Origin: a virus | DNA: 30,651 nt | IMG/VR virus record: IMGVR_UViG_3300014501_000208 | Location: 1 to 30,651 of that record | Strand: one strand, 5' to 3' | Shown: piece by piece, positions 9,672-30,651 of the stretch | Layout: each line of letters starts with the position of its first letter | Numbering within the stretch: the first letter of the stretch is position 1 | Position numbers and translations under genes: made by a program | Notes under the pieces: model-generated | Told to the model about the DNA's origin: nothing | Seen by the model: only the letters and a program-made list of their open reading frames with translations | The model's database searches: none

Positions 9672-10922
9672 TTGGCTATTTTGAATTCTCCCAGAGTTGT
9701 ACAGACTTCCGTCACCGAATCCACGCTGAAGCGTGATGTTGACGACTCGCTCGTAAGGCTGGAGCCGGATGCGGCTCCGCTCTACGTGCTCACCAATAAC
9801 AAGAAACGAACTGCCGGCGCATCTTCGCCAAGGTTTGAATGGTTCGAAGATGCAGAAGCGCCGTTGTGGGGCCAGGTATCAAACACGGCCGCGTACTCCT
9901 CGGCTGCTACCACAATTGTGGTAGTGGACGGCACGATCTTTGCGGTTGACGACCTCATTCTCGTTCCCGTGGGAATCGGCGCCGGATTGTCGGCGGCAGA
10001 AGAGGTCATGCTGGTCAGCGCCAATTCTGGCGGTTCTGGCGCGACCCTGACTGTCGTGCGCGGCATTGGCGGCGTTGGCGCGAATACCATTGCGGCCACC
10101 GCCTCACTGAGAATTCTTGGGCAGGCATGTACCGAAGGTTCGGGCGTTCCGACCTTGCGGACCACGCTCAAAGTTCCTCACATCAGCTATTGTCAACTGT
10201 TCAAAACTCCGGTTGTGGTATCGGAGCACGAGCAGGCAACTGAAGTGTATGCCGCCCCACAGGGCGAACGTCGCTATCAGCAGGCAGTGGCCTTAGTCCG
10301 TCACCGCTCGGAAATCGAAGCGGCCGGACTGTGGGGTCGCGGATCTGAAACTCTGGCAGGCGGCACAGAGCCTTCTGGTGGACTTGGCGCGATTACTGGC
10401 GCTTCCCGCTGGACGACTCAAGGCGTGAAACCGACAATCCAAACCTATATCACCGATGCCTCGACGACCCTGACGTACACGGCGATGCTGCAATTCGGCG
10501 AAGGCGGATTCCGGTACGGCGAAAAGTCAAAACTCTGCATGGCTGGTCCGCACGTGTTGTCGGCGTTTGATTATTTTAGCGCCAACAAACTGCTGACCAA
10601 CGTTCTTGCGGACGTGTTCGGCGTGCAGATCAAGAAGATCGTCACGAATCACGGAACGTACCTAATTGCCAACAACTTCCGCATGGAAGCTGGCATTGCA
10701 GGCGCGGCCGGGTTTAACGGCGAGTTTTATTTGATCGATCTGCCCAGCGTGATCTTCCGTTACCTAAACGGCAACGGCAAGAGCATGAATACCCGCCTTT
10801 ACGAGGACATCGTGAAGGACGGCAGCGACAAGACGGTGGATGAGTTCAAGTCCATTGTTGGATGGCAGGTGAAGTTCGAGAAGAAACATGCTCGCATGTT
10901 CAACGTGAGCGCGTTCGCTTAA
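9672..10922 (+). CDS. major capsid protein, SU10/DUF5309 type, 416 aa
   Basis: TTG 9672 gives MAILNSPRVV, with GAGG about 9 nt upstream. The N-terminal region has TLKRDVDDSLVRLEPDAAPL and RFEWFEDAEAP, the signature of the SU10-type capsid family: an HK97-like fold with a characteristic F-E-W-x-E-D block. A beta-rich insertion (about residues 75-145) follows. The P-domain/A-domain helix FKTPVVVSEHEQATEVY and a C-terminal QVKFEKKHARMFNV segment complete the fold. Length is normal for the family. It forms the icosahedral head shell. The 77-nt gap upstream shows no strong promoter. A strong intrinsic terminator follows at 10939-10971. Confidence 0.88.
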   Translation: MAILNSPRVVQTSVTESTLKRDVDDSLVRLEPDAAPLYVLTNNKKRTAGASSPRFEWFEDAEAPLWGQVSNTAAYSSAATTIVVVDGTIFAVDDLILVPVGIGAGLSAAEEVMLVSANSGGSGATLTVVRGIGGVGANTIAATASLRILGQACTEGSGVPTLRTTLKVPHISYCQLFKTPVVVSEHEQATEVYAAPQGERRYQQAVALVRHRSEIEAAGLWGRGSETLAGGTEPSGGLGAITGASRWTTQGVKPTIQTYITDASTTLTYTAMLQFGEGGFRYGEKSKLCMAGPHVLSAFDYFSANKLLTNVLADVFGVQIKKIVTNHGTYLIANNFRMEAGIAGAAGFNGEFYLIDLPSVIFRYLNGNGKSMNTRLYEDIVKDGSDKTVDEFKSIVGWQVKFEKKHARMFNVSAFA

Positions 10923-13994: not shown

Positions 13995-13997
13995 CCG

Positions 13998-15062
13998 ATG
14001 AATCGCTCGACCGTAATCTCGATGGTGCAAGACCTGACGGAGCATAGGGCAGATGAACGCCTCGACTTCAATAACCTCTTCAATCTTCGTCTGGTTAAGT
14101 TCATTCAGGAAGAACCGTTCTGGTGGCGCAAAAAGATTTTCTCGTTTACGACGGTTGCGGGAATACCTACTTACGATTTCAATAATTTCCCGACTCCGGG
14201 ACTGACGCAAGCGATTATAGATGCGCAGTTTACGACCGGCACGAACGGCGTATTGTTGTCATTTAGCGGCTCGGTTCCGGGATGGCTGATACCCGGTGCG
14301 CAGATTGCCGCAAGTCTTTCCGATAGTCGCTTCAATGGTGGTCCGTGGACGGTTGTATCTGTGACTCCGGGATCGCCAAACGTGATCGGCCTCACGGTCA
14401 ACCTAGGATCGTCGTCCATTGCCCAAGAGGCGGTTACGGGCCAAGTGCAGCAGATTTACCCCACTTCTTTAGCCTCAGACCTTGAGTCGTTCCTAAAGGT
14501 AACTCTCTGGCTTAATGGCCAAAAACTTGGCCAGATGGAGCCGAATTTTGATATCGAGAGCATTGCTGATGCGCAACAAGATGCACTGAACTCCTCTACC
14601 TGGTGTGCTCCTGGAACTTACTGTATTGAACCAGACAGCCAAGCTCCGATCCCTCCATCGCTAGCGCTGCCGACGCTCACGACGATGCGTTTGATGAACT
14701 GCCCAGACCAGCCCTATTTGGTTGTGGTTAGTTATATGGCGGTTCCGCAACTGCCTGACGATTGCGACGACGACATAATTCCTCTGATTCCGCCGATGTA
14801 CCACCACGCGCTGGTGTCCGGCTTAAAAATGGATGTAACCGGATTCCTTTTCGGGGAAAAGAGCGACCTGTATTCAGTCTCACAAAGCGAATACCAAGAG
14901 AGTGTCCAGAAGGCGATCGCGCGGCAAGACATCAGCGCAGCCAAGAAACTGCAATTCATTGTGCGCGAGGAAAGCGTTCGCTCAACGGTCGGAGGCTATG
15001 GCGTGGCTCCTGGCGATCAGGTATTCGATACTGACGTGATTGAGAGCGGGTTTAATCAATGA
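13998..15062 (+). CDS. head-tail adaptor-like protein, 354 aa
   Basis: ATG 13998 starts 3 nt after the methyltransferase stop. The opening is a helical domain followed by EPFWWRKKIFSFTTVAG and YDFNN, the style of podovirus adaptor/tail-tubular proteins that bind the portal. Residues about 70-155 are an extra beta-rich insertion. Later DDDIIPLIPPMYHHALVSGL and a helical tail (SEYQESVQKAIARQD) fit the adaptor pattern. The stop overlaps the next start (ATGA, 15059-15062). Assigned by sequence style and by place between head genes and nozzle. Confidence 0.6.
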   Translation: MNRSTVISMVQDLTEHRADERLDFNNLFNLRLVKFIQEEPFWWRKKIFSFTTVAGIPTYDFNNFPTPGLTQAIIDAQFTTGTNGVLLSFSGSVPGWLIPGAQIAASLSDSRFNGGPWTVVSVTPGSPNVIGLTVNLGSSSIAQEAVTGQVQQIYPTSLASDLESFLKVTLWLNGQKLGQMEPNFDIESIADAQQDALNSSTWCAPGTYCIEPDSQAPIPPSLALPTLTTMRLMNCPDQPYLVVVSYMAVPQLPDDCDDDIIPLIPPMYHHALVSGLKMDVTGFLFGEKSDLYSVSQSEYQESVQKAIARQDISAAKKLQFIVREESVRSTVGGYGVAPGDQVFDTDVIESGFNQ

Positions 15063-17638
15063 GCCCGCAGGCGCAAGTACAGGACAAGGGGCTTGCTGAG
15101 TTATATATCTTTGGAGGGGTTGACAGCCGGAGCAATCCTCTCAATATGCCGCAGGACCGCTCCCTGCTCTGCTCGAACTGGGTTCCGAACATTGGGGGAT
15201 GGCTGGAATTGCGTCGAGGGTACACCGAACTTGCAACGACGGGCGCGACGATCGGTGCCTACATTCATTCTATCGCTCCGTATACGATGTGGACAAATGT
15301 CAAATACCTTTTACTGGGCGCCGGTGCCAACGTTTACTCGCTGGCGCTAGCGACTGGCGTTATCACCGAGATCGGAACGCTGAATACCAGCAATCCGTGG
15401 AACTGGTTTCCATCGGCCGGGCAGATAAACATCGGCGACGGAGCAAATGTATGGTTTTTTGATGGAACCACGCTGCGATTGAGTGGCATCCGCTCCATGA
15501 CCACAGCAGAAGCGAATAACGTCTCAGTCAGCATCGGAACCGATACGCCGTCTCTCTCTGGAACCACGGTGGTATTCGCTTCTGGCGGAGACTGGTTAAG
15601 CAATGACGTTACTGGAGAAATAGTTTACGGGGCCGTGTGGGATCCTTTGGCTGGCGCAATTTCTCCGCTAGTTGCCATAAATACCACTCCCATCCTTGGG
15701 GTCGCAGGACAAAGACTGAACGCATCATCTTTGCCTTTATTGTCTGGTTCCAAGTTGTGGGTGCTAGCCTGCACCGCCGACGGAGGAACAGCTCCGAGTT
15801 ACATTTCGGCTCGCGGCACGAGTAGCCCCACCGCCCTACCATTCACGAGCTTCTCGGTTTCCGGGCAAGTTGTGACCGTAGTTTCCACTGGGCATGGGAT
15901 GACGGATGGTTATCCAATAGCCGTCATCTATCAAACGGGTACTCAGGTCGTATGGTACGGCGGCGTGTTTAGGGTTGATCCGGTTTTCGCCAACGTGGGA
16001 CCGGTGGCCATCGCGGTCATTGATGCCAATCACTATAGTTTCCAAGTTCCAGCCGGAACCACGGTGCCTGGATACTCTTCAACGCTTATTACGTACGCCA
16101 TAATGACGGGCGGAACGATTGTATCGAACCTGCCAGTCCTGGCCGCTAATTATCAGCAGACTGGATTGCCGCCGAGTACGGTTGGCGGAGCGCAACCCGG
16201 TTATCAGTTGTATGCCTGCATCTGGGATCCGGTAACGCAGCACGCGGGCAACAGGATGGCGATTGGCGCACGACTTGCACCCTCCGATCCATCCACGATT
16301 AACGTTGCGTCATTGCCCAACCTGAACTCGGAAAATCCCGAATGGCAGATTCTTTTGGGATACACGATCGATGGCGGAGAGGTTCCTTATTTACTGCTCG
16401 ACAGCGGTGGAAACTGGCTATCGGTGCCGTCCGGCGTGACTTCGTGGGTGATTGGCGGAAACTATACCCAGGATCAAACCTCGGAGATGCCATACCGCAA
16501 CGGCATTCCTCCGGCGATGAATAAGTTTTGCATCATTGGCGACCAGGCCTTGGGATGTACGGGGCAAGATGCTTACGTGTACGTGTCGGCATCGGCGGCT
16601 AGTCCACTGAATCCCGAAGTAGTGGGACAGCCGAATGAGTCGTGGTCTCCGGATGACGTGGTGACGTTTCCGACTCGTGAAGTTCCAACCTGCATCCAGG
16701 AATACAACCAGAGCGCGATGGTGTTTTCGCTGAACTACTCTGCGCCACTGGTGAATACCTCTGGAGTGTGGGACTGGGGACAAGGCTTCCCGTGCGGATG
16801 CGCGGGACAACGTGCCTTTGTCAAGACAATTCACGGACCATTCTGGGTGACCGGACAAAAGCAACTGGCAACCATAAACACTAACTGGGGGGCCGGCTAC
16901 GCTCTTGCCACGGGGCCGATCGTGGTTTCCTCTGAATACGAGCGGGCGCTACTTGCGATGATCGGCGACCAATACCTCGGCGAAGTCGAGGTTGCGGCCT
17001 ACATCGACGTGGCGAAACAGAAAGACGAGATCATCATCAAGGCGCTAGACGTGAATGGCGTGCCGTTTGAAATCGTTCACGACTTCAATCTGAAGGACGA
17101 TAAGGCGCAGTTCGGGCAAGCCTATTTCCGGCAGTACGGATCAACTCTTGCCGAAGATTACACCCTTGCCAACGGATTCGACGTAAACGGTCTGCAGCGC
17201 GTCTATGCTGGCGGATCGGACGGTAACGTCTACCAGGAAGAGTCTGGCTACAACGACAACGGGGATGAGTTCGAGGCCACATATCTCGGACTTGTCAATC
17301 TCGGCGGCGAAAAGCCATCACTGACTGACATTCAGATATGGGGCGATCACACCATTATCGACACCCCGGTACTCCAGTTAAACAACACGCTGGATGCCAC
17401 TGGCGATTGGGTGCCATTGTTGCCAGCACAGGATCGCGGCGACGGAACACATGATTTCAAATTCCATAATCGCGTAAAATCTGGGGAAAGCAACTTCTTT
17501 TATGTCCAGATTCAACTGACAAGTCATTCCGTGGATGCGCCGACAACGGAGTTAAGCACCCCTCCCCACTTCCCGGTCGAAGATTATGGCAAGATTTATT
17601 TAGCAAGAATACTCTTTGGAACCTCGCGAGGTACGTAA
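15059..17638 (+). CDS. tail nozzle/stabilisation-like structural protein, 859 aa
   Basis: ATG 15059 overlaps the adaptor stop by 4 nt. The N-terminus contains DRSLLCSNWVPNIGGWLELR followed by RGYT, a motif seen in phage tail hub/nozzle proteins with beta-propeller folds. Repeated beta-strand units with Gly/Trp (VWFFDGTTLRLSG; EWQILLGYTIDGGEVPYLLL; GVWDWGQGFP) continue through the protein. The C-terminus has a metal-like DNGDEFEATYLGL region. It most likely closes the portal channel below the adaptor. The length is large for P22 gp10-like proteins but fits T7 gp12-sized nozzles. Confidence 0.6.
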   Translation: MSPQAQVQDKGLAELYIFGGVDSRSNPLNMPQDRSLLCSNWVPNIGGWLELRRGYTELATTGATIGAYIHSIAPYTMWTNVKYLLLGAGANVYSLALATGVITEIGTLNTSNPWNWFPSAGQINIGDGANVWFFDGTTLRLSGIRSMTTAEANNVSVSIGTDTPSLSGTTVVFASGGDWLSNDVTGEIVYGAVWDPLAGAISPLVAINTTPILGVAGQRLNASSLPLLSGSKLWVLACTADGGTAPSYISARGTSSPTALPFTSFSVSGQVVTVVSTGHGMTDGYPIAVIYQTGTQVVWYGGVFRVDPVFANVGPVAIAVIDANHYSFQVPAGTTVPGYSSTLITYAIMTGGTIVSNLPVLAANYQQTGLPPSTVGGAQPGYQLYACIWDPVTQHAGNRMAIGARLAPSDPSTINVASLPNLNSENPEWQILLGYTIDGGEVPYLLLDSGGNWLSVPSGVTSWVIGGNYTQDQTSEMPYRNGIPPAMNKFCIIGDQALGCTGQDAYVYVSASAASPLNPEVVGQPNESWSPDDVVTFPTREVPTCIQEYNQSAMVFSLNYSAPLVNTSGVWDWGQGFPCGCAGQRAFVKTIHGPFWVTGQKQLATINTNWGAGYALATGPIVVSSEYERALLAMIGDQYLGEVEVAAYIDVAKQKDEIIIKALDVNGVPFEIVHDFNLKDDKAQFGQAYFRQYGSTLAEDYTLANGFDVNGLQRVYAGGSDGNVYQEESGYNDNGDEFEATYLGLVNLGGEKPSLTDIQIWGDHTIIDTPVLQLNNTLDATGDWVPLLPAQDRGDGTHDFKFHNRVKSGESNFFYVQIQLTSHSVDAPTTELSTPPHFPVEDYGKIYLARILFGTSRGT

Positions 17639-17639
17639 T

Positions 17640-18119: not shown

Positions 18120-18530
18120 ATGGACATAATTCCTTGGGATCTACAGTGGCGCGGAAACATCCTTTTTCCGGTGGACGAAAAGGTACATGCGGCGGCAACT
18201 GAGTTTTGTAGGGATCATCTCGCGGCACCGTTTGACCCGCGCGGACACGCGAAAATATGGGTAGCGCGGGAAAACGATAGCGTTGTGGGCGTGGCTGGAA
18301 TAAGGTCTTGTTGGGACATTCCGGTATTTCGCTCCATCAGCGAGAAGGCCAGTTTCAGATTGGCGGATCGGGTTAATTCGTACTTCGCTGATCAGGGATT
18401 TCGCGGCCAAGGCGTGTTCCTGTATCTTTCGCAGTCGGAGAGTCCGGAGCAGATGTGTCCGCACCGGGAAGCGATTCTTTCCAAGGTGGACGCGAAGCCG
18501 GCAGAGCGCTACGTGGTGACGTGTAAATAG
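18120..18530 (+). CDS. GNAT-like hypothetical protein, 136 aa
   Basis: ATG 18120 directly follows TAA 18117-18119. The segment IWVARENDSVVGVAGI (46-61) looks like the strand pair of an acetyltransferase, and FRGQG (94-98) resembles the acetyl-CoA-binding R-x-x-G-x-G/A loop. The N-terminal helix and Leu/Arg run fit too. The conserved pyrophosphate loop is poor, so this is a weak call. It may be a structural relative without activity. Adjacent to tail genes. Confidence 0.4.
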   Translation: MDIIPWDLQWRGNILFPVDEKVHAAATEFCRDHLAAPFDPRGHAKIWVARENDSVVGVAGIRSCWDIPVFRSISEKASFRLADRVNSYFADQGFRGQGVFLYLSQSESPEQMCPHREAILSKVDAKPAERYVVTCK

Positions 18531-18571
18531 ATTGTTTGGCCGGAGGGGGCCGAAAGAAATGGGAAATAATT

Positions 18572-19132
18572 ATGGGTGGTGGACCCTCTCAGGCGCAGAA
18601 AAACGCGGCAACGCAACAGGCTGCACTCTCGGCACAACAAACCGCGACGGCGGCTCAGAACCAGCAAGAGCAGCAAACGGCGTATAACGAGATCAACCCC
18701 ATGGCAACTAACCTGATGGCCAACGGGTTGCCATACACGAACGCGATCACCAACTACAACAATGGAACCACGGCAGCGTCGGCACTGCCAGCGCGTGCCT
18801 CGCTGCTGCGCTCAATGGGAGGAAACACCGCAGCGCAGCCGAACGGCTTCAAGACGGCAGAGATGGGTGATTTCGACAACGGTCTGGCGTCAAGCTTCGA
18901 CAATAACATGACGAGCGCTCTGACGAATAACGAGAACGCCAAGCTGCAAGGCGCAAGTATGCTCACCGGCCAGCAACAAGTGCTAAACCCGTTGGGATAT
19001 TCAACGGCAGCCAGTGGCACCAATTCCTCTATTATGAATGCTCCGCTGGCGACGCCGAGTCCGCTGGGTGCGGTACTAGGGGCTACCGGTGCCTTGGGTA
19101 CCGCAGCCATTAATAATTCGCCAGCGTTTTAA
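18572..19132 (+). CDS. Ala/Gln/Asn-rich virion protein, 186 aa (ejection type)
   Basis: ATG 18572 begins MGGGPSQAQKNAATQQ, a typical start of phage internal/ejection proteins; TTG 18536 is an alternative without support. GGAGGGGG stands some 25 nt upstream. The N-terminal 45 residues are an amphipathic Gln/Ala helix, and the rest is flexible with Met/Leu/Asn patches. The low-complexity, uncharged character and the location before two more proteins of the same kind suggest DNA-ejection (internal) proteins, which form a channel in the host envelope. No family recognised. Confidence 0.55.
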   Translation: MGGGPSQAQKNAATQQAALSAQQTATAAQNQQEQQTAYNEINPMATNLMANGLPYTNAITNYNNGTTAASALPARASLLRSMGGNTAAQPNGFKTAEMGDFDNGLASSFDNNMTSALTNNENAKLQGASMLTGQQQVLNPLGYSTAASGTNSSIMNAPLATPSPLGAVLGATGALGTAAINNSPAF

Positions 19133-19143
19133 GGAGCCAGACA

Positions 19144-20838
19144 ATGGGTTCACTGTTTAGCAATTTGACTCACACTGGCGTACAGCAACCGAACGGGCAA
19201 ACGTCTTTTCAAAACAATCCGGCCGCAACTGGACAGGCTCTCGCTTTAGCGTCGGCCGCGACGGCGCAACCGAACACCTCGAATGTGGACGGCACGCTTA
19301 ACCCTGACACGTATACACAGGAGGTCGCTGGCGGACCGTTAACAAAGCAGAGTTCTGACAACACGACAGTCACGCAAAACGCTCCTCCGGTTACGGCGCA
19401 GCCGAGGGTGGTCACTCCTTCCTTCGGTCAAGCGAACGACGGCGGCACCAATCCTTTCAGTTCGGCATTAACGACGAAAGGGAAGGTTTTGTCCGGCCTG
19501 CTGGTTGCCATGCAAGGTGCGGCACGCGGCGCGGCGGCGAGCGTTCCCACGAATCCACATATCAGTCCCGGCATAGGACCGGCACTCGCGGCGGGCGTGG
19601 AAACTCCGTTTGCGATGAAACAGCAACAGAACGAATTAGAGAAAGAGGGAGCACAAAACAAACTGATCGCCGCCCAGTCAGCGATGGTTCCCACGCCGTA
19701 TGGACAAATGCCGGAGGGTATGGCCAAGTTAATGTTCCCGGCCATGATCAAAGCTGGCGCCACGACTGATGCAGCCAAGATCGGAGCTGGCAGTCGCGAA
19801 AACGTAGCCAACACCGCAGCAAGCAGTCGCGAGACTGTCGCTCAGACGAATAAGCGGTTTATGGCCGTTCCGGGCGTGGGATTACTAGATACACAGGATC
19901 CCAGCGGAAAACCGACGTTGGTTCCCGGTTCCCAGGAAGGCATCACGCTTACACAGCAACATCTTGACGACTATGGATTGCCGAAAGAATTTCTCGGCAA
20001 GACAATGACGATCTCGCAACTCTCGGGACTCGAGCGCGGACAGGCAGCTCGTGCCGGAACAACCACGAATACGGTCGAGTACAAGGACGACGGGCAAGGG
20101 AACATTGTAGCCCTCCCCAAGACGACCACTACCAATAAAAACCTTCCCGGCTCGCCTGCCGCGTCGGTAAAGCCGGCAGTCGGCGCAACTTCGCCAGGAT
20201 CGCCGAAAGTGGTTATCAGCGGAAAGTCTGTTCCAATGTCGTTTGGTACGGACTCTGATGGCAATCAAGTAGCCGGTACTCCTGCTGAACTGAAAGCCGC
20301 AGGAGTTAGCAACTACTCGCCACTTGGCGCCGACGGAACGGCAAAGGTTAACATCGCTCGGCAACTCATCAGCCCGACAGGATTATTTGCTCTGGCGCAA
20401 AAAGATTTGGACAAGTTCAAGCCTGGAGAACTTGAAGGGTTAGCGCCAAGATGGAATGAGTTCTTGGCTGGCAAGGTTGGAACCGACGATCCGCGATACG
20501 TCGCTCTCCGGACCCACGTTAACGGCCTACTGAGTACCGCTTTAATGCAAGCCCACATGGGCGCCCGTGGCGGCGAAAGTATCATGGAACATTTCCAAGA
20601 CATGGCCAATGCCGGGAAAATGTCCAAGGATACCCTCCAGTCTGCCCTTGGTGCCGAGAAAGAATACGTGCAGGACAAGGCGATGCGGCCAAAGGTTAAG
20701 CAAGCTGGCGCTGCGCCTCCGCCAACAGGCATGGCGGTAAGCCTCTCGGCAGCGAGACAACTTCCCCAGAACAACGGCAAGACTGACGACCAAATCAAGG
20801 CTGACATTGTGAAATACGGCCATGCGGTGACACCCTAA
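19144..20838 (+). CDS. large ejection/internal-virion-type protein, 564 aa
   Basis: ATG 19144 follows AAGGAG (19131-19136) with a 7-nt spacer. The N-terminal 190 residues are Gln/Asn/Thr/Ala-rich and low-complexity. The middle holds Ala-rich helices (AKIGAGSRENVANTAASSRE). A folded C-terminal part (about 400-540) contains LFALAQKDLDKFKPGELEGL and HMGARGGESIMEHFQDM. The stop shares its last A with the next ATG. Size and context fit a podovirus internal protein released with the DNA; no enzyme motif such as a lysozyme is seen. Confidence 0.55.
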   Translation: MGSLFSNLTHTGVQQPNGQTSFQNNPAATGQALALASAATAQPNTSNVDGTLNPDTYTQEVAGGPLTKQSSDNTTVTQNAPPVTAQPRVVTPSFGQANDGGTNPFSSALTTKGKVLSGLLVAMQGAARGAAASVPTNPHISPGIGPALAAGVETPFAMKQQQNELEKEGAQNKLIAAQSAMVPTPYGQMPEGMAKLMFPAMIKAGATTDAAKIGAGSRENVANTAASSRETVAQTNKRFMAVPGVGLLDTQDPSGKPTLVPGSQEGITLTQQHLDDYGLPKEFLGKTMTISQLSGLERGQAARAGTTTNTVEYKDDGQGNIVALPKTTTTNKNLPGSPAASVKPAVGATSPGSPKVVISGKSVPMSFGTDSDGNQVAGTPAELKAAGVSNYSPLGADGTAKVNIARQLISPTGLFALAQKDLDKFKPGELEGLAPRWNEFLAGKVGTDDPRYVALRTHVNGLLSTALMQAHMGARGGESIMEHFQDMANAGKMSKDTLQSALGAEKEYVQDKAMRPKVKQAGAAPPPTGMAVSLSAARQLPQNNGKTDDQIKADIVKYGHAVTP

Positions 20839-21800
20839 TGTCACAAGATCCATACGCCCAAATCGCACAGCCAATACAGACCACACAGGCTGATCCGTAT
20901 GCGGCCATTGTCAAACCTCCACCATCCGCGCCCGTTACGCAACCAACGTTCATGCAGGTTTTGACGCAACCTACAGACAAGACCGACAAAGAGTATGGCG
21001 GATACACTGGGCCAGCGGGGGTTGCGGGTGCAACCATTAAAGGATTGGATGATGTAGGCCGTGGCGCGCAAGACGCGGTGACTGGTACGTGGAACATACT
21101 GCGTCATCCAATTGACACGGTTAAGGCGGCAGCCAATTTGCCGTTGCAGGCGGCTCAGGTTCCAGCCGCAATCCACGACATCAATCAATCCCCCGACCCA
21201 ACGGGAAGTTATCTTCAGGCCGCACAAGACACGGCAGCCCAAGGGGCTGGCCAAGCCCTACTGGCAGTGGCAACCGCCGGAGCGGGAAAGGCGGCAGGAA
21301 AAATCCCAAGCGCTGCGCGTGCTGGCGCCGCCCTCAATGACGTGAAGAATGCAGCCGGAAGTATTCCGGTAGACACTTCAACGTTCAGTGACTCAGCACT
21401 GGAACTCTACACGCAATCGCAACGCGGAGCCAAACTTCCAAAGGCCGTGCGCGATCTAGTAACGCGGGTCACGAAGCCAGACTCGCCGCCATTGAACTAC
21501 GCGGAAGCCAAAGATTTTCAGTCCAACATCTCCAACTTGTCAGCAAATGACAAGATGGCATTGAGCGGCAAAACGTCGCGCCTTGTGGGGCAACTCAACC
21601 AAGACCTGAAGAGTAGTTTGAAGGACGCGGCAGACGTTGCGGGCAAGGGACAACAGTTTCAGGACGCAATGCAGCAATACCACAACGCCATGAAACTAAA
21701 GGGACTCAGCGACAATGCAATCAACGCGGCATGGAAGGCTGCGCTGACTGGCGTCGGGCTATACGGGGTCAGTAAAATATTTACGGGTGGCTCACGTTAG
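20838..21800 (+). CDS. Ala-rich ejection-type protein with hydrophobic segments, 320 aa
   Basis: ATG 20838 overlaps the previous stop by one base. The N-terminal 55 residues are Gln/Pro/Thr-rich (YAQIAQPIQTTQADPYAAI). Residues about 55-170 are Ala/Gly-rich and partly hydrophobic (AAQGAGQALLAVATAGAGKAA), plausibly membrane-inserting. The last half is a charged helical region, ending in a short hydrophobic helix (ALTGVGLYGVSKIF). This matches the look of phage ejection proteins. The stop overlaps the end of the minus-strand microprotein gene by 4 nt. Confidence 0.55.
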   Translation: MSQDPYAQIAQPIQTTQADPYAAIVKPPPSAPVTQPTFMQVLTQPTDKTDKEYGGYTGPAGVAGATIKGLDDVGRGAQDAVTGTWNILRHPIDTVKAAANLPLQAAQVPAAIHDINQSPDPTGSYLQAAQDTAAQGAGQALLAVATAGAGKAAGKIPSAARAGAALNDVKNAAGSIPVDTSTFSDSALELYTQSQRGAKLPKAVRDLVTRVTKPDSPPLNYAEAKDFQSNISNLSANDKMALSGKTSRLVGQLNQDLKSSLKDAADVAGKGQQFQDAMQQYHNAMKLKGLSDNAINAAWKAALTGVGLYGVSKIFTGGSR

Positions 21801-21895
21801 CCAAACCAGAACTTCCGATACCAGCGACGACGAGAACGCTCCCGCGCATTGTCCAGTAACACTAAAACGATCGCAGTAAAGATGATCCAACCCAT
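21797..21895 (-). CDS. 32-aa minus-strand membrane microprotein
   Basis: On the minus strand ATG (21893-21895) is preceded by GAGGTG (21900-21905) with a 4-nt spacer. It runs 32 codons to TAA (21797-21799). The peptide has an N-terminal hydrophobic span (GWIIFTAIVLVLL) and a strongly basic tail (RERSRRRWYRKFW). It is the only gene on this strand that I support. The TTGCAT-18-TACAAT signal upstream adds weight. The topology suggests a holin-inhibitor-like or toxin-like peptide, but no function is shown, and such short ORFs do arise by chance. Confidence 0.4.
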   Translation of the reverse strand: MGWIIFTAIVLVLLDNARERSRRRWYRKFWFG

Positions 21896-21911
21896 AAAGC
21901 ACCTCAATGAC

Positions 21912-21941
21912 ATTGTACCGCCCGTGCGGGAGAGAATGCAA
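21912..21941 (-). promoter_or_regulatory. candidate sigma70-type promoter, minus strand
   Basis: Read on the minus strand, TTGCAT (21936-21941) and TACAAT (21912-21917) are separated by 18 nt. TACAAT is one base from the -10 consensus; the -35 is 3 of 6. The start of transcription would fall near 21905, at the Shine-Dalgarno sequence itself, leaving a very short leader, which weakens the case. Confidence 0.3.
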
Positions 21942-21986
21942 GGGAAATCGCGTGAATCAGCTTATGCGAAAAGAAGGTAAAACACG

Positions 21987-22307
21987 ATGGGATCGATGCA
22001 GCCGCCGAAGCAGTTTTCGGCACCAGGGGTAATGCTCTCCCCTGATCAACAACAGGCCGTAACGCAACAGGCACAAGCATTGCCGCAACAGCCGCTCAAT
22101 CCCAACCTGATGATGAACATGAATCAGTTGCCGACCGTGGCGTCACCCAACGCTACGCCAAGTCCGGTTTTACCGCAGCCCAGCAATAACCCGGCGCAGT
22201 CGAATCCGATCGGATATCCGGCACCAGGCGGGAATGGCGGACAGTACGGCAGCACTCTGCCGTTGCAGCCAGTCAAGACGCCTGTTCGTGCTGCAAAAGC
22301 GCGGTAA
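21987..22307 (+). CDS. Gln/Pro/Asn-rich virion protein, 106 aa
   Basis: ATG 21987 follows AGAAGG about 10 nt upstream. The protein is almost entirely Gln/Pro/Asn/Met (QQQAVTQQAQALPQQPLNPN), with no folded core and a short basic end (VRAAKAR). Probably a flexible structural or ejection-associated protein. The gene sits between the ejection block and the adhesins. No family recognised. Confidence 0.55.
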   Translation: MGSMQPPKQFSAPGVMLSPDQQQAVTQQAQALPQQPLNPNLMMNMNQLPTVASPNATPSPVLPQPSNNPAQSNPIGYPAPGGNGGQYGSTLPLQPVKTPVRAAKAR

Positions 22308-22334: not shown

Positions 22335-25300
22335 ATGATGCGCTTATCCCCCCTGCGCGCGTTCGCGGGCGTGTGTGTTTTTATGGTTGCATCGCTTGCG
22401 GCCTTTTGTCAGAGCGTTACAGTGACAGCGAATCTGCGCTCTTTGACCGGAGCGGATGTTACTAGTGGAGCTTATTTTCAGTTCACCTTGAAGGCGTTCA
22501 ACGGCAATCCTGTTCGCGTAGTCGGCTCGGCTTGGATCAACACAGCTCCAATTATTGCCCGCCCGGACTCTAGCGGCCATATCTCCGTCGCACTCGAAGG
22601 CAACGACACGCTGACTTCCTACGTCGTCAACGATACCTACTACCTCGTTGAAGTCTATAGCGCCGGAGCTAAGATTTACGGCGCTCCATTTAAGATCACA
22701 GGTTCACCTTCGTTCGATTTAGATGCTGCAACACCGATCTCTCTAACGCCTCCCAACTCAAGTCTTCCGACAGGTTCATTGAACTACGTTGACACGTTCT
22801 CTAATCAAACCATCGGCGGGAATAAGGACTTCAGTGGAACGATTGGCGTAGGAACCAACGGAAGTTTAATTCAGGGCGCATCGTCCGGCGGCGGCACGGC
22901 GACTCTCCCTGACGGCAGCGGAACGCTTTGCTATATCTCAACTTGCCCAGGATCAGGATCATCTTTCGATCCAACGGCCAATATCGCCTTCAGTGGAGTT
23001 GACACTGCTTCCAATCTCAACGGAGTGCTTTACGCTGCTGATTGTGCGGGCGTGGATATGGGCGCGCAAATCAATGCCTGCGTGGCGCAACTTCCGACCG
23101 TCGGCGGCTATCGGGTGGGAACGATTGTTCTGCCGAATGCTGCGGGAACGACGTGGAGTACTCCGGTAGTCATTGGGCCGGGAACGAATTTGCAAGGGCA
23201 GGGAAAATTAGCCAGCAGCTTTTCCTGTATGGTCGCAAGCGGAAACTGTCTGACCGTCAATCACTCGGGATCTTCCGGGCAATTTGCGCACACGGTCGAA
23301 CCGAATAGCATTCTTGAAAATTTCTCCATCATTGGAAACGGAGCGACGGGACAAAACATCATTGTCGCTGAAGACATGACGAACGTCATAATTCGTAGCG
23401 TCATGGCGGATGGTGCAAGTGAATCCGGGGGAACGTGCTGGTATTTGCAAGACGTTAACTTCTGGACGGAGCGCAACACGTTCGAAGACGACTCTACTGG
23501 CTACGGTTGTACTTTCGGTTTGCGTTTCACTGCGCCTTCCGGGCACCCGAGTTTCGGCTACAACCGATTCCTCGATTTCAAACTAAGCCCGAATAATGTA
23601 CAAACCGCTATCTCGGTCGAAGGATCTTCTTATCTTTATCAAGGAACCTACCGCTTCACGATCAACAAAAATGGCGTTGGTTCAACCGTCTGGCACATGC
23701 AAAACACAGCGCAGTTCTATGACAATTTTCTGCAATTGGACGGAGAAGACGATGGATCGGGCGGTTATCTCTTCGACTTAGCCTCCGACTCAACCGTTCC
23801 GGCGATCGTCTACTGGGGCAACATTTTCTTCACCGCGATCGCCAACAACTTCGGATCGAACGGAATCAATCACGTCATCGACTCCAATTACTTCACGGCG
23901 GGCGGCGGCTCCATCGTCTTCAACCCATTCGATTTTACGGCTGGCATCACGTCGGATACCGTAACCGGAGGCAACACTACCGGCTACACAACCATAATTC
24001 CGTCCAACAATTCCGTGGGCTACGCATTCGCGGTAACGAACTATAACGGTTTGACGAATTTTTTCACAATTGCCAATCCCAGTGGGAACGCCCAATTTAC
24101 CGGCAACTTACAGGTGCAGGGGACTATGAGCGTGCCCAGCCTCACGGTAAGCGGGCTGACTTCTGGGAGATGTGTACAAACTACTACGGGCGGCGGATTT
24201 ACCGTGACTAGTGGTGCTTGTGGAACCAGTTCCGGCTCACTTACCGCAACAGGGTCGCCGGCCAGTGGTAACCTAGCTGCCTTTTCTGCCAGCACTTCAC
24301 TAACTAACGTGAACCTCTCCGGAGATGCCTCGACTTCAGGTAGCGCCGTAGTAGAAGTTACCGGCCTACTGAATAAGGCGTTGCCTAGCTTGGCAACGGG
24401 ATGCTTAAACTACACATCGGGTGGGGCTTGGGCGCTTAGTACGTGCGCTTCGGGTGGCTTACCTGCGGTGATGATCTACGAGCCCGCTGGGACGTCTTTA
24501 TCAACCTTGCAGGCGGCTATTAATGGGGCCTCCCCAGGGACTGAGTTCGAACTCGCGGGCACTTATTCCGGTATTTGCGGACTCACAATCACAGGCTCGG
24601 GCATCCGGCTGCGCGGCATGAACGAATACTCGACGACCTTTACCTGCTCGACGGCGGGCACGCCAGTGGTCACAGTCAGCGGCAGCGGCGGCAATGGCTT
24701 CGCGATGTACGGCATCACCGTGCAACATGTCACCAACGCTCCCACCTGCTCGGGCGGTCCGGGAACTTCAACGTGCGGAGACGGCTTACAGATTCTCGGC
24801 GGATCGAGCCGCGTCAAACTGGAGAACGATCACTTCAACTTCAACTATGACAACCTCGTTCTCGGCTATACGTCCTATGGTGACGTAGTTAACTCGGAAT
24901 TCGAATACGCGCAGGGCGACAACATTTACCTCCTGATGGACTCCACGCATACTACGATGCAGTGGTCAATTCGTGGCGGATTGGCAGAGCAAGCACTGGG
25001 CAATGGCGTGAATATGACCTGCCCGAGCGCATTCAGCGGAGTGCAATCCACCGCCCCCAATATTTATGATTTTACCTCTTACGCCAATGGTCTATCCGGT
25101 TTCAGGTACAGTTGCTCGGCCGCGACAAGTTCCGGCATTGCGGATGTGATTTTGGATGGCGTGACTTCGACGACGAACAACGGTTCGGATATTCTTCTGG
25201 ACCTGGGGCCAGCCGGTGGCCGTAATGCCACTGTACGTTGCGTGCTCTGCGAACTGGCGGGACAGGCCAACGTGGGTGCTGGTTTCGCCCAGGGCACACA

Positions 25301-26054
25301 GACCCCGACCGGAGTGGGGGACGGCGTTACGGTAACCAGTTCCTGCGATGCGACGACGCCGCCAAGCATCAGTGGGGTGTTCTGGGAAAACTCTGACGCG
25401 GGGGTGAATACATCATGTGCGGGCACTAAGGTTTCCGAAGGCGACTATTTCCACAACGGCCTTGCCTCGGGCGCGACGGCTACTCAGTCTGACGTGGAAG
25501 TACAGGCGTCGAACGTGTCCATTACGGATAATTATTTCCGTAACACCACCAACGGCCTCTACATCGTCAGCGGTGATACTCCGAACGATATAGGGAACGT
25601 TTGCGATTCTTCCGTCACGAACTGTAAGGCTTGGGCGACTTTTCCGCCCAGCGGTTTTCAGTCGTGGATTGGGCCTAGCAAGGTTACTGTAGGGAGTGGC
25701 CCGGCAGGACTGAGTATCCCTGGAATCATCACAGGGATTCAGTACGCGACCACTACAAACTGTGCGGTGAACTCAACTTCCCCGGCTATGTGCGGATCGG
25801 CGGCTTCTGGTGCGGTTGTGATTCCGACGACAACAACTACTTACACGATCGACACGTCGGCAGTGACCGTTCACAGCCGAATCCAGTTGACGTGGCTTAG
25901 CTTTGCTTCGGATTTGCCTAGTTCTCCGACCTGCGTGGCTCCTTCAGCAAGCGCGGAACCGACAGTTTCAGCAGTCAGCGCCGGAACGAGCTTCACGGTC
26001 TCGCTAGCGTCTACCAGTGGACAGACGTGCCCCATGTTTACGATCACAAATTAA
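22335..26054 (+). CDS. tail spike/adhesin with signal peptide and beta-helices, 1239 aa
   Basis: ATG 22335 (or 22338) follows AAGGAG (22318-22323). The first 25 residues form a Sec-type signal: LSPLRAF, hydrophobic AGVCVFMVASLAAFC, then QSVTV. Residues 25-140 are a beta-sandwich-like domain; NQTIGGNKDFSG (157-168) is a common tail-fibre repeat. Residues about 233-560 and 715-1000 form right-handed parallel beta-helices of pectate-lyase style: DMGAQINACVAQL, then LPNAAGTTWS, and later TLQAAINGASPGTEF and similar. Many Cys come in pairs. It should bind or cleave a host surface glycan. No catalytic triad is identified. Confidence 0.7.
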   Translation: MMRLSPLRAFAGVCVFMVASLAAFCQSVTVTANLRSLTGADVTSGAYFQFTLKAFNGNPVRVVGSAWINTAPIIARPDSSGHISVALEGNDTLTSYVVNDTYYLVEVYSAGAKIYGAPFKITGSPSFDLDAATPISLTPPNSSLPTGSLNYVDTFSNQTIGGNKDFSGTIGVGTNGSLIQGASSGGGTATLPDGSGTLCYISTCPGSGSSFDPTANIAFSGVDTASNLNGVLYAADCAGVDMGAQINACVAQLPTVGGYRVGTIVLPNAAGTTWSTPVVIGPGTNLQGQGKLASSFSCMVASGNCLTVNHSGSSGQFAHTVEPNSILENFSIIGNGATGQNIIVAEDMTNVIIRSVMADGASESGGTCWYLQDVNFWTERNTFEDDSTGYGCTFGLRFTAPSGHPSFGYNRFLDFKLSPNNVQTAISVEGSSYLYQGTYRFTINKNGVGSTVWHMQNTAQFYDNFLQLDGEDDGSGGYLFDLASDSTVPAIVYWGNIFFTAIANNFGSNGINHVIDSNYFTAGGGSIVFNPFDFTAGITSDTVTGGNTTGYTTIIPSNNSVGYAFAVTNYNGLTNFFTIANPSGNAQFTGNLQVQGTMSVPSLTVSGLTSGRCVQTTTGGGFTVTSGACGTSSGSLTATGSPASGNLAAFSASTSLTNVNLSGDASTSGSAVVEVTGLLNKALPSLATGCLNYTSGGAWALSTCASGGLPAVMIYEPAGTSLSTLQAAINGASPGTEFELAGTYSGICGLTITGSGIRLRGMNEYSTTFTCSTAGTPVVTVSGSGGNGFAMYGITVQHVTNAPTCSGGPGTSTCGDGLQILGGSSRVKLENDHFNFNYDNLVLGYTSYGDVVNSEFEYAQGDNIYLLMDSTHTTMQWSIRGGLAEQALGNGVNMTCPSAFSGVQSTAPNIYDFTSYANGLSGFRYSCSAATSSGIADVILDGVTSTTNNGSDILLDLGPAGGRNATVRCVLCELAGQANVGAGFAQGTQTPTGVGDGVTVTSSCDATTPPSISGVFWENSDAGVNTSCAGTKVSEGDYFHNGLASGATATQSDVEVQASNVSITDNYFRNTTNGLYIVSGDTPNDIGNVCDSSVTNCKAWATFPPSGFQSWIGPSKVTVGSGPAGLSIPGIITGIQYATTTNCAVNSTSPAMCGSAASGAVVIPTTTTTYTIDTSAVTVHSRIQLTWLSFASDLPSSPTCVAPSASAEPTVSAVSAGTSFTVSLASTSGQTCPMFTITN

Positions 26055-26061
26055 TCAACCT

Positions 26062-28539
26062 ATGAGAAAATTTCTTTTTGGTTTATTGGTTGCGGTTTCG
26101 TTCGCGCATGGGCAAAGTGTTACCATAACCGGCCCTGGCACAATCACTTTCACGGGAAGCCTAACCTTCAGTCCCTTAGTGAATTGCGGACCCCCGTCTT
26201 ATTGTGCGTCCACAGAAACAGACATCGTGGCTTTGCCGACTACGACGTACATGGGCGGGCTTACAAAGAACGGAACCATTTTCTACGATACGTCGTATTC
26301 GGCTGGCTCGCCCAGTCCGGTCGCGCGCTGCACCGATTCGGCAACGGCGCAATCGGGTTATTATCCTTACGCTTCAAAGTCGGCGGGGCTGGGCGGCGCG
26401 GGGTCTGCAGGGCCGCTATTTAATTCCACCGACACGCTGCTGCACGTCAATGACAACGAGGGCAACAACTGGATTGTCCCCTTCAATCCTTCAAGCATGG
26501 TTTGCTCGCCGGCGCTGACGGCAAACCTGAATCAATCTTCAACGGGCAGTTCGTCGGTCACGGTCGATTTCGGGCAAGGCTATTTCGACTGGCAGAATGC
26601 TTCGATCTATCACGCCGACAACAACGTTACGCAAGTCGTTCCCTATACCATCAACACTTCGACGGGAACGTTTACCGTAGGAGTGGGCGGCAGCATCGGA
26701 GTCACGGGCGCGGCCGAGGCTGATTTTCAATATGCGCTCCCTTACGGCTCACTGGTGGCGGCGTGGCAAGCCAGCCATTCGTACACTCAGGGGCAATACG
26801 TTTCTTACGCGCTGACGAGCACGCAGGCGCCGGACTGGACGGCCAGCAAATCAACTTACAGCCTGGGTGACATCATCCAGCCGCTAACGAACAACGCTCT
26901 GAATTGTGCGCTGAAACTTGTTCAGACGGGAACGACCGCAAGTTCTGGTTCAGAGCCGAATTGGAACGGCGGCGGGATAACCTCTTGCCACTACGCCGAT
27001 TGGGGCAGCATTTCCGATGGCACGGCGGCTTGGGAGTATCTTGGCCCTGGCTCAGGCGCGACATTTATTTTTCAGCTCACGTCTTCGAGCGGAACTTCGG
27101 GATCTTCCACCCCCGCATTCGTTCCGGTAGCAACTGGCCATCCTGACCTAATGACTGCGGTCAGTGACAACGGCCTGACATGGACGAATGTAGGCGTCGA
27201 GTCTCTGAATTCCTATCGCAGTTTCGCGGGAGTCTCTTACGACGGCACAAAATTCTGTCAGACGACTTCGACCGATGTCTACGGCTACAACGGGAGCTAT
27301 TCGAATGTGAACGGGACGCAAGGACAAGGGAACTGGGAGCAGTGCTACTCGACGACATTGAACGAATACATTTTGCTGAATACGACGACGGGCTGGCAGT
27401 CGGTGGTCGGATGCGCGGGCGGAACGGGCTTCAACTGCTCGGGAGGCTCCTGGGCGATGACGCCCCAAGGTTCGTATCCGGTGCTTACTACGGGCGCATG
27501 TGGATTCTTTACCCACAGTACCCGGAGTTCTTACGCGCTGACCTATGTCTCGATTGATATTCAAGCGAATCTCACGGGTGCGTCCGGGTGTGAAGTGGGC
27601 AACGCCTATGCCTGGAATGCGTTTCAGAGCTTCAATTCCTCGACGGGCTTGGGAATGTTTCGCGCCGGGTTGAATCACTACGCGATCGGCAATAACACCA
27701 TTTGGAATAACGGGCAGAACTGCCTCGATAACACGCTGGGCGGCTCCAGTTGTCCGGGGGGAACTTTCGGTTATGCCGCAATCGGCAGTTATGGCGGTGC
27801 GTATCTGAATGCCTACCAGGACGCCAATCCTTACACTCTGGCCGACATTAAGATTGCCTGGCAGCCGACGCCGTGCGATAGCTCCGCGTACACGGCGGGA
27901 CACATCTATACCAACCCGCCCTGTCAGTTCGGCAATGCCTACGACTCGCACTTGGGCGCGATCTATAACCTCCTGGGCGGAGATTCCTCTCCCGTCTGCG
28001 GCAGCATTCTCAACGTCGTGACCGGCAGCCCCAATCCGTTTGCGCCGTGGCATGGCGAGTTTGTCTGTGTACCCACAGCCACGACATGGGCCTATGGTGC
28101 AGCACCATCGGGTCAAAACAAACCGTGGCGATTTGTCCACGAATTCAATACCATGACCTGTCCGTTCTTTGATTGTCAATTCGCGATTTCCCAGGTCTCT
28201 ACCACCGGGAAGTTCGCGGCCTTTACTTCTGACTGGATGTGCTCGCTGGGTTCGACTTCGGGCGGCCCGACGGCAACCTGCGGCCTTCCCTGGACCGGAA
28301 GCACGGCTTACACCACTGGCCAGTATGTGAATCCGTGGAGTTCGTTTGAAGGTTCCGGCACGGATTACGGGGTGTATGACATCACAACCGGAGGCACCAG
28401 TCCAGCCACGCATCCTAGTTGGTTTGTCTGCAATGCCGGGACGGTGGGGAATACTGTAACCGACTCGAACGGCGTGGTCTATACCTGCGTAGGCCAAAAC
28501 AATCAGCGCGGCGATGTTTTCATCGTGAACTTAAAGTAA
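26062..28539 (+). CDS. Cys-rich secreted-style tail adhesin, 825 aa
   Basis: ATG 26062 is chosen because MRKFLFGLLVAVSFAHGQS is a clean signal peptide. TTG 26017 would bury it inside a longer frame. The start lies 7 nt after the previous stop with no clear Shine-Dalgarno, so it is likely coupled. The body is beta-rich with several W-x(3)-SYTxGQYV-like units (WQASHSYTQGQYVSY; WTGSTAYTTGQYV) resembling carbohydrate-binding repeats. Many spaced Cys occur (CDSSAYTAGHIYTNPPC; CPFFDC). No beta-helix signature is clear. A tail adhesin or depolymerase is likely. A host-derived secreted protein is a possible origin. Confidence 0.6.
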   Translation: MRKFLFGLLVAVSFAHGQSVTITGPGTITFTGSLTFSPLVNCGPPSYCASTETDIVALPTTTYMGGLTKNGTIFYDTSYSAGSPSPVARCTDSATAQSGYYPYASKSAGLGGAGSAGPLFNSTDTLLHVNDNEGNNWIVPFNPSSMVCSPALTANLNQSSTGSSSVTVDFGQGYFDWQNASIYHADNNVTQVVPYTINTSTGTFTVGVGGSIGVTGAAEADFQYALPYGSLVAAWQASHSYTQGQYVSYALTSTQAPDWTASKSTYSLGDIIQPLTNNALNCALKLVQTGTTASSGSEPNWNGGGITSCHYADWGSISDGTAAWEYLGPGSGATFIFQLTSSSGTSGSSTPAFVPVATGHPDLMTAVSDNGLTWTNVGVESLNSYRSFAGVSYDGTKFCQTTSTDVYGYNGSYSNVNGTQGQGNWEQCYSTTLNEYILLNTTTGWQSVVGCAGGTGFNCSGGSWAMTPQGSYPVLTTGACGFFTHSTRSSYALTYVSIDIQANLTGASGCEVGNAYAWNAFQSFNSSTGLGMFRAGLNHYAIGNNTIWNNGQNCLDNTLGGSSCPGGTFGYAAIGSYGGAYLNAYQDANPYTLADIKIAWQPTPCDSSAYTAGHIYTNPPCQFGNAYDSHLGAIYNLLGGDSSPVCGSILNVVTGSPNPFAPWHGEFVCVPTATTWAYGAAPSGQNKPWRFVHEFNTMTCPFFDCQFAISQVSTTGKFAAFTSDWMCSLGSTSGGPTATCGLPWTGSTAYTTGQYVNPWSSFEGSGTDYGVYDITTGGTSPATHPSWFVCNAGTVGNTVTDSNGVVYTCVGQNNQRGDVFIVNLK

Positions 28540-28580
28540 TCCTTCCCGTCGTAGATTCCAAAAAATCTTTTCAAGAACGA

Positions 28581-28596
28581 CTCAAGCCACCTTGAG
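28581..28596 (+). other. small hairpin just before the third adhesin gene
   Basis: CTCAAG (28581-28586) pairs with CTTGAG (28591-28596) around CCAC. It stops 3 nt before the GAGG ribosome site of the gene at 28612. There is no T-run, so it is not a terminator; it may simply structure the short leader. Confidence 0.4.
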
Positions 28597-28611
28597 CGCG
28601 AGGTAGACCCT

Positions 28612-30651
28612 GTGCGTAAATTACGAATCCCCGATGCGCTGCTGATTGTCGCTGTCACGATGATCAGCACCATCGGCGCAGTATGTCAGAACGGCCTGGG
28701 CGGCAACGTTTCTGGGAATGTGTTTATTCCCCCTCCGTTCAAGCTGTGTCTCGGCGTTGATAACGGGCAGAATGTTTGCTTTCAACAAACCGGCGACGGA
28801 ACGGCAGCGGTTACTGGAACGCTCACCGGCGTAAGCGGCGTAGGACCTGGAGGCGCGAATTCCCAGATTCAAATCAATACCGAAGACACATTTGGAGCAA
28901 TCGTTAACGTAGTCCCCGGATCTGTGTTGGTTTCTCAAGGCACAACGACGCCGGCGATATTTCAGTCCAAGTTAACGATTGATGTTCGCGACTACGGAGC
29001 GGTTTGCAACGGGTCTTACGACGACACGGCAGCCTTGAACGCGGCGGTCGCAGTGGTTTCCGGCTCCGGCTGGAATGGCTCGTCTTGGGGGAACCCAACG
29101 GTCAGCGGCAAAATCGTGCTGCCGATCGGGAACTGCACCACCACGACCGGCCTTGTCTACAACGGCGGGAATAATTACTCCATCGAAATCGCGGGGCAGA
29201 CTTCGGCGGCGAACACGACCGCCTCGACACTGACCTACACAGGTGCATCAGGCGGAACGGAAATCCTGTTTAACAGCGCCGTGCGGTCGAAGATCGACAA
29301 TGTGTTTATTTCCTGCACCAACTGTCTCTACGGAATCAACTTCGACTCTCACAACCTTACCGAAAGCGGCGCTGCGGGTTCCCATGATTTGGCGATTGAT
29401 CATGTCACGATTGGCATGGGGTCGGTTGCGAACGCAGATGCCGTAGCCTTTGGTCATCCGGGCTGTACCGGAGAACAGACTGATACCGTGCTGATTACGG
29501 AGCCTTACTTCGCGGGGCAGGGACTAGCCAGTACCAACGGAATCCTTAATTTCTGCGCCAACAACAACAAGAATTTCACGGTTGTAGGTGGTTCGCTTAT
29601 TTCTTTTGGTACGGCGATAAACGTAATTTTATCAATCGGTGCTTTCGACGTATATGGCACAACATTCTTAAACAATGGAGTATCTATTAGTCCCAGCGGC
29701 GGACCTGCCAACTGGAACATTGTCGGAGCCCGCGTTGAGGGAGACGGACGGTTTGTCTATCCTGGAAATATGAGCGATCCATCCACGATGACCATTCAAG
29801 ATTCGTATATGTCATTGGCCGCCCCATCAGATGACATTGCCATTCAGTTCTACGGGATGCTGAACTTGATCGGCAACGACATTAACGATAATCGCACAGG
29901 CTCTTCGCGTCCACGAATTGTCGCCGCTGCCGTTAGGCATGATTCTTCGATCACCACAACTCCGAGCGGCGTTCACTCCATGCATAACTGGTTTAAGAAC
30001 GCGGACGAAGTAACCAACTGTGTTTTCTACGATAGTAGCGATAACGTTCTCAACGATAAATGCGGCTCAGCTTACTACCAGCATTTTGCACTAAACACCG
30101 ATTTCACCAGCGAAGGCGACTGGGGCGGGGCGGTCGGGGCGATCATTCCGCTTTCCGGCTCCGATCAACTGGGGAAAGATTTCTTCGGAGCGACGTTCCG
30201 CGAGATTGGCTCGACCTCGAACTACCCTCCGCAGACGGGCTGCTTCCTCTGCATGTTGAACAGCGGAGTCATTCTCTTTGAGAACAATGCTGTCTCGGGA
30301 ACAGTCAACGGCTTAAGCAAGAATTCGAGCGATGTTGTCGTAGTCGGCGGCGCGGCAGGAATCTCAGTAACGGGTTGCGCCGGTTGCAGCCCCTTCGGAT
30401 CACTCACCACTACAGGTACGAGCGGCGCGGCCACGCTCAGCGGCGGGGTGCTGAATATTCCGCAATACGCAGGTGGCGGAAGCATGACCTGGCCATCGGG
30501 CGCTGGAATCGCCGTCTATGCTGGTAGCTCGGCTTGGGGAACGTCGCTGACGGCCCCAGCGGGCACTATCGTTGGTACGACAGATACCCAGACTCTGACG
30601 AACAAGACGTTGGACGGCGTGACCCCGACAATCATGGGGTATCTGGATGCC
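28612..30651 (+). CDS. tail spike, pectate-lyase-like (partial, runs off window)
   Basis: GTG 28612 follows GAGG (28600-28603) with an 8-nt spacer. The frame stays open for 680 codons to the last base. The N-terminus is a basic-plus-hydrophobic signal (MRKLRIPDALLIVAVTMIST, cleaved around CQN). DVRDYGAVCNGSYDDTAALN (124-143) is a textbook pectate-lyase-3/tailspike entry motif. A parallel beta-helix follows to about residue 560. The visible end carries DTQTLTNKTLDGVTPT, a tail-fibre repeat. Paired Cys again occur. Likely a depolymerase or receptor-binding protein; the C-terminal trimerisation part is outside the window. Confidence 0.75.
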   Translation, partial: MRKLRIPDALLIVAVTMISTIGAVCQNGLGGNVSGNVFIPPPFKLCLGVDNGQNVCFQQTGDGTAAVTGTLTGVSGVGPGGANSQIQINTEDTFGAIVNVVPGSVLVSQGTTTPAIFQSKLTIDVRDYGAVCNGSYDDTAALNAAVAVVSGSGWNGSSWGNPTVSGKIVLPIGNCTTTTGLVYNGGNNYSIEIAGQTSAANTTASTLTYTGASGGTEILFNSAVRSKIDNVFISCTNCLYGINFDSHNLTESGAAGSHDLAIDHVTIGMGSVANADAVAFGHPGCTGEQTDTVLITEPYFAGQGLASTNGILNFCANNNKNFTVVGGSLISFGTAINVILSIGAFDVYGTTFLNNGVSISPSGGPANWNIVGARVEGDGRFVYPGNMSDPSTMTIQDSYMSLAAPSDDIAIQFYGMLNLIGNDINDNRTGSSRPRIVAAAVRHDSSITTTPSGVHSMHNWFKNADEVTNCVFYDSSDNVLNDKCGSAYYQHFALNTDFTSEGDWGGAVGAIIPLSGSDQLGKDFFGATFREIGSTSNYPPQTGCFLCMLNSGVILFENNAVSGTVNGLSKNSSDVVVVGGAAGISVTGCAGCSPFGSLTTTGTSGAATLSGGVLNIPQYAGGGSMTWPSGAGIAVYAGSSAWGTSLTAPAGTIVGTTDTQTLTNKTLDGVTPTIMGYLDA

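Follow-up and report, generated by a model that had tools for sequence, protein, structure and literature searches.

Export of fibres by the secretion machinery of the host seems to occur in some tailed phages, because three consecutive long genes of the soil phage analysed here encode proteins with Sec-type leaders and paired cysteines, and because the Cellulophaga phage phi10:1 carries leadered proteins annotated as part of the virion. Judged from sequence, we lean towards the reading that the three products, ORF1-ORF3, are fibre or tailspike precursors of a podovirus-like phage that would be exported by Sec, cut, folded in the periplasm, disulfide-bonded and docked at or after lysis.

The window, meaning the whole stretch of DNA analysed, is a linear IMG/VR virus record of 30,651 bases. 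Its genes include one resembling a terminase, one for a major head protein and a cluster for tail and internal virion proteins, and the gene order is podovirus-like, as in Roseobacter phage CRP-810, with a GNAT gene soon after the stabilisation protein. Downstream of the virion block and on the same strand, ORF1-ORF3 reach the contig end. Pfam and PHROG searches of the window ORFs gave almost no matches, and a search seeded with the large gene at 5407 found no relative. The host is probably a member of the Acidobacteriota, as suggested by the likeness of the modules to an Acidobacteriaceae contig and by the leader type. The features referred to below are as follows.

9672..10922, plus strand: major head protein (phrog_1328, E=2e-15), which served as marker in the search for relatives
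15059..17638, plus strand: large tail/stabilisation-type protein without leader, assigned by position and kinship with relatives, at the same place in CRP-810
18536..22307, plus strand: putative internal virion proteins, assigned by position only, Cys-free and without leader, immediately 5' of the fibre block
22335..26054, plus strand: ORF1, putative leadered fibre/adhesin, 1239 aa, with 28 Cys in the mature chain as 14 consecutive pairs
22335..22409, plus strand: predicted Sec/signal peptidase I leader of ORF1, MMRLSPLRAFAGVCVFMVASLAAFC followed by Q, from the leader rule and direct reading
26062..28539, plus strand: ORF2, putative leadered fibre/adhesin, 825 aa from the ATG at 26062, with 24 Cys in the mature chain
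26062..26112, plus strand: predicted Sec/signal peptidase I leader of ORF2, MRKFLFGLLVAVSFAHG followed by Q, from the leader rule
28612..30651, plus strand: ORF3, putative tailspike-like protein with a leader, 680 aa or more and open at the contig end, with 14 Cys in the mature part
28612..28686, plus strand: predicted Sec/signal peptidase I leader of ORF3, VRKLRIPDALLIVAVTMISTIGAVC followed by Q, from the leader rule
30400..30480, plus strand: fibre repeat motif LTTTGTSGAATLSGGVLNIPQYAGG in ORF3, common to 21 other viral contigs
30583..30651 (start approximate), plus strand: fibre motif beginning TDTQTLTNKTLDGVTPT in ORF3 at the contig edge

Two further observations concern the rest of the window. 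Inside the virion block, the interval 12476-13994 holds a gene whose PHROG match is of glycosyltransferase type, followed by a methyltransferase-type gene; the head genes of phage phi12:1 include an adjoining methylase and glycosyltransferase. Two tRNA genes, His(gtg) and Thr(tgt), are located at 1284-1358 and 1639-1714, and the second is overlapped by an ORF at 1402-1800.

The first-pass annotation had described Sec-type leaders on three successive ORFs, and this was confirmed. A home-made leader rule, used in place of SignalP, flagged only ORF1-ORF3 among the window ORFs of at least 100 aa, against a background of 1 in 3000 random N-termini and 1 in 131 ORFs of at least 250 aa from ten control records, the single control hit being a 268-aa protein adjoining a lysozyme gene. 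By the same rule, each leader has the anatomy of a Sec/signal peptidase I substrate, with a positive n-region, an uncharged h-core and small residues at -3 and -1. All three end in A-x-[C/G] before Gln (Ala at -3, Cys or Gly at -1, Gln at +1), and the predicted mature chains begin with QSVTV in ORF1, QSVTI in ORF2 and QNG in ORF3. ORF1 is preceded by the ribosome-binding site GGAG. The naive call of ORF2 is a GTG at 26017, and its leader starts at the ATG at 26062, 7 nt past the ORF1 stop. Such ambiguous starts, which occur in ORF2 and several relatives, together with the home-made predictor could suggest that the leaders are start-site or chance artefacts, but the low background, the three consecutive occurrences and the same finding in relatives make this hardly credible. 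From their sequence, the leaders are very probably working signal peptides.

The sequences do not point to lipoprotein processing or type IX secretion. Processing as lipoproteins by signal peptidase II does not fit ORF1-ORF3, in which the lipobox [LVI][ASTVI][GAS]C is absent: AAFC of ORF1 and GAVC of ORF3 have no G, A or S immediately before the Cys, and ORF2 has no Cys at that place. As for type IX secretion, Pfam detected no C-terminal domain of the Por_secre_tail type, neither among the ORFs of the window nor among the leadered Bacteroidota fibres that were scanned.

ORF3 was assigned as a fibre or tailspike by its fibre motifs and a weak pectate-lyase-like match (PF12708, residues 123-339, E=0.0035, below the cut-off). 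For ORF1 and ORF2, only position and architecture led to this assignment. ORF1 had no match in Pfam, PHROG or the phage collection, and no direct homologues of ORF1 or ORF2 were found in the viral contigs or the phage collection. A PDB sequence search gave no match, and, on the point of a beta-helix fold, single-sequence AlphaFold2 models reached a mean pLDDT of 33-34. In their modules and gene position, ORF1-ORF3 resemble tailspikes and fibres of Caudoviricetes with pectate-lyase-like regions and fibre motif repeats, but the usual proteins of this kind have an N-terminal virion anchor domain and no leader. We consider it likely that ORF1-ORF3 are virion fibres.

The paired cysteines reported in the first-pass annotation proved to be more strongly patterned than it had claimed. 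Cys makes up 2.1-3.0% of mature ORF1-ORF3 versus 0-1.9% of the other ORFs of at least 300 aa (Mann-Whitney P=0.007). Once the leader is removed, the gaps between Cys residues run alternately short and long, in register, and in ORF1 they measure 3-32 within pairs and 32-221 between pairs. Compared with random placement, this pairing gave P=4.5e-4 for ORF1, 0.028 for ORF2 and 1e-3 for ORF3 (Fisher combined 2.4e-6). Pairing was also found in the three leadered proteins of viral contig L022 (P=2.5e-4, 5e-4 and 5e-5) and in leadered proteins of L029 (P=0.005), L018 (P=0.009) and L036 (P=5.5e-4), and was not significant in those of L026 and L059. Cys-rich proteins without a leader as a rule show no such pairing. 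Among the Cys-rich control ORFs, the two at P<0.01 (L018:7338 and L022:11614) are both leadered by eye, three further ones lie at P 0.02-0.04, and the remainder have no pattern. An even Cys count was rejected as evidence, since most leadered proteins are even and most controls are even too; therefore only the spacing counts. The spacing in ORF1-ORF3 is that expected of sequential disulfides. Ordinary exported proteins of the sampled Acidobacteriota are Cys-poor (0.47%), hence the Cys richness is particular to fibres of the ORF1-ORF3 type. Since the leadered proteins of phi10:1 have 0-2 Cys, disulfides lie outside the general phenomenon.

The closest relatives by head protein, L002, L003 and L004 (64-67% identity), each have, within the structural block, a gene for a leadered protein roughly 900-960 aa long. 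The protein comes in two distinct versions, and those of L002 and L004 are 48% identical with the leader present in both. Two more remote relatives, L048 and L049, have another leadered protein in common (34% identity over 951 aa), which in L049 matches phrog_3287, a virion structural protein (E=1e-13). Relatives among Roseobacter, Vibrio, Aeromonas and Microcystis phages have fibres without leaders. The refuting condition named in the first-pass annotation, that homologous phages lack leaders, holds for remote relatives with other hosts and fails for the closest ones.

Two further observations concern the relatives. In L013, the first 20 kb of the L003 contig, positions 10780-19522 carry a set of type I-C CRISPR-Cas genes (cas3, cas5c, cas8c, cas7, cas4, cas1) with a 15-repeat array. 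On this phage contig the set is flanked by a gene for a DnaB helicase on one side and by the virion genes on the other. None of the 14 spacers had a good match among the sequences compared, and the set could be phage-borne or reflect a prophage or assembly junction. The virion block of L004 (L011:1336-12279) ends in a 3647-aa protein with methylase/helicase-like stretches, which replaces the leadered fibres and resembles a large 'DNA methylase' of Vibrio phage VS-ABTNL-3.

More than half of the fibres in the 21 viral contigs that match the short ORF3 motif have a leader, often several consecutively, and in a second, broader fibre-motif sample 6 of 69 were leadered and 63 were not; neither is a random sample of phages. 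L022/L023 encode three leadered fibres in a row with 2.0-3.3% Cys. Among named genomes, the motif occurs in an Acidobacteriaceae MAG and in Fibrisoma limi (Bacteroidota), both with leadered fibres. The F. limi prophage has three leadered fibres followed by a lysozyme-like gene; the PHROG matches of its 534-aa leadered protein are to tail fiber, EPS depolymerase and tail spike families (E to 5e-12), and the leader and about 60 aa replace the usual N-terminal domain. A leadered protein of L021 matches virion structural (E=6e-24) and tail spike (8e-13) PHROGs. The leaders sit on mostly non-homologous N-termini, indicating that the trait was gained or moved many times. Large tail proteins have no leader in the isolated Bacteroidota phages 6H, B124-14, P2559Y, RAP44, 11b, phi12:1 and immuto; therefore the leader is a variant within the host phylum rather than its rule. 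Separately, Flavobacterium phage FCL-2 encodes a small leadered protein annotated as hypothetical (L044:45363-45806; MKTIVITLLLSISTYS, cut before QVGIATTTPTE...), with near-identical copies in 78 Flavobacterium phage records, mostly of F. columnare.

Capture of host secreted-protein genes had been offered as one origin of the leaders. In favour of a recent capture, with no role for the leader in the phage, the leaders resemble those of the host, and Gln at +1 also occurs in exported proteins of Acidobacteriota and Bacteroidota. However, the leaders front phage fibre and tailspike modules in many unrelated phages, on unrelated N-termini, and persist at 34-48% identity. The N-terminal domain of ORF1 found no homologue in 297 Acidobacteriota genomes, which is a weak negative as the search had no positive control. 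We regard recent capture as very unlikely.

Gln at +1, known as the Q-rule, was found in all three of ORF1-ORF3 and in 29 of 41 leadered ORFs, or 19 of 37 when the scoring bonus for Gln was left out; the orthologue leaders of L004 and L049 do not have it. Host leaders carry it in 6/19 cases for Acidobacteriota and 17/33 for Bacteroidota, a weak comparison because the scorer favours Gln. In Bacteroidota, substrates of signal peptidase I expose Gln at +1 and cyclise it (PMC5837995, PMC10653852). The cut that exposes Gln is common to these substrates and, as predicted, to ORF1-ORF3, although the rule was set out for hosts in the Bacteroidota, neither for Acidobacteriota nor for the fibres of phages. 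The closest precedent comes from phages of Porphyromonas gingivalis (proposed Nixviridae), in which five Q-rule proteins have been reported whose function is unknown (PMC10367356). These are likewise phage-encoded, and their signal peptides follow the Q-rule of the host, but they belong to phages of a Bacteroidota host and were read as host modification and not as fibres. The export and disulfide bonding inferred in the first-pass annotation are thus supported by the leader anatomy, the retention of the leader in diverged homologues, Gln at +1 and the Cys-pair test.

In the cultured marine phage phi10:1 (KC821618), the four consecutive proteins gp91-gp94 are annotated as virion structural proteins by experimental MS/MS and all have Q-rule leaders (leader region of gp94: MKHTISIVLFFILSLGLNA), and therefore leadered fibres can be virion parts. 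PHROG assignments place gp94 in tail fiber and gp92 in virion structural. The source of phi10:1 is presumably a PNAS paper of 2013. Like ORF1-ORF3, gp91-gp94 are encoded one after another in the fibre region that closes the tail block, and each has Gln at +1 after a Sec leader, but they belong to a marine Bacteroidota phage of a longer-tailed gene-set type and contain almost no Cys; no direct sequence similarity to ORF1-ORF3 was established, and the record does not mention the leaders. The premise that fibres are built without export therefore stands for most phages sampled but not for these four proteins. A search of the open-access literature returned no report that expressly describes fibres of tailed phages as carrying Sec leaders. 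Filamentous phage coat proteins pIII and pVIII pass through Sec with a cleaved leader, and the virions are extruded without lysis. They resemble what is proposed for ORF1-ORF3, namely virion proteins that use Sec and lose the leader, but differ in the non-lytic extrusion at the membrane and in an unrelated virion type.

The leadered proteins might instead be exported without joining the virion. As secreted adhesins or depolymerases, they would remove exopolysaccharide, coat the producer cell or mask receptors in superinfection exclusion. The combination of Sec leaders with pectate-lyase-like modules would suit such a role, the Q-rule genes of P. gingivalis phages were so interpreted (PMC10367356), and the gene next to gp94 in phi10:1 encodes a leadered pectate lyase, gp95, that is not marked as detected by MS/MS. 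We consider this role unlikely in view of the MS/MS annotation of gp91-gp94, the placement of several leadered proteins in virion structural and tail fiber families, and the finding of no other fibre gene in the available sequence of the window phage. A leadered protein in a virion preparation could nevertheless be a secreted protein sticking to virions. It is also conceivable that the leader stays uncut, as a hydrophobic N-terminal segment serving tail anchoring or a membrane-bound stage of assembly. The N-terminus is the usual site of the virion anchor in tailspikes, and the leader and about 60 aa of the Fibrisoma tailspike stand where the anchor domain would be. Yet an anchor needs no small-x-small site before Gln, which is kept on unrelated proteins with an uncharged stretch up to the cut, and the Cys pairing points to an oxidising compartment, making an uncut leader quite improbable. 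Two ideas of the first-pass annotation, that the fibres are made or displayed outside the cell and that assembly has a membrane-anchored early stage, could each apply.

Under the preferred reading of ORF1-ORF3 as exported fibre precursors, Sec would translocate them in late infection and host signal peptidase I would cut between A-x-[C/G] and Gln, baring an N-terminal Gln that is probably cyclised to pyroglutamate. The chains would fold in the periplasm, where consecutive Cys would form disulfides, and the folded fibres would be kept there until lysis, docking on the tail as lysis mixes periplasm and cytoplasm or just afterwards. In P22 and T4, fibres and tailspikes can be added to completed particles extracellularly. 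For an exported fibre to meet a cytoplasmic tail, docking at lysis or later appears the likeliest route, and we give it about an even chance. Export and cleavage are strongly indicated, and the time and place of docking are suggested more faintly; for the window phage, we infer pyroglutamate, disulfides and the presence of ORF1-ORF3 in the virion.

More broadly, and with somewhat less than even confidence, we propose that some lytic tailed phages that infect Bacteroidota and Acidobacteriota may use a two-compartment assembly, in which heads and tails are made in the cytoplasm and Sec-exported fibres in the periplasm are fitted at lysis. Phage phi10:1, with MS/MS data on its virions cited in the record, lends itself to a direct test. 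A signal peptide has been argued as evidence against being a virion protein (PMC6199706); if the proposal is true, it would no longer count in this way. A whole class of phages would then make its tail fibres outside the cytoplasm, which would change the limits on their folding through disulfides and periplasmic chaperones, and would bear on how fibres avoid binding inside the cell and on the laboratory expression of fibre genes.
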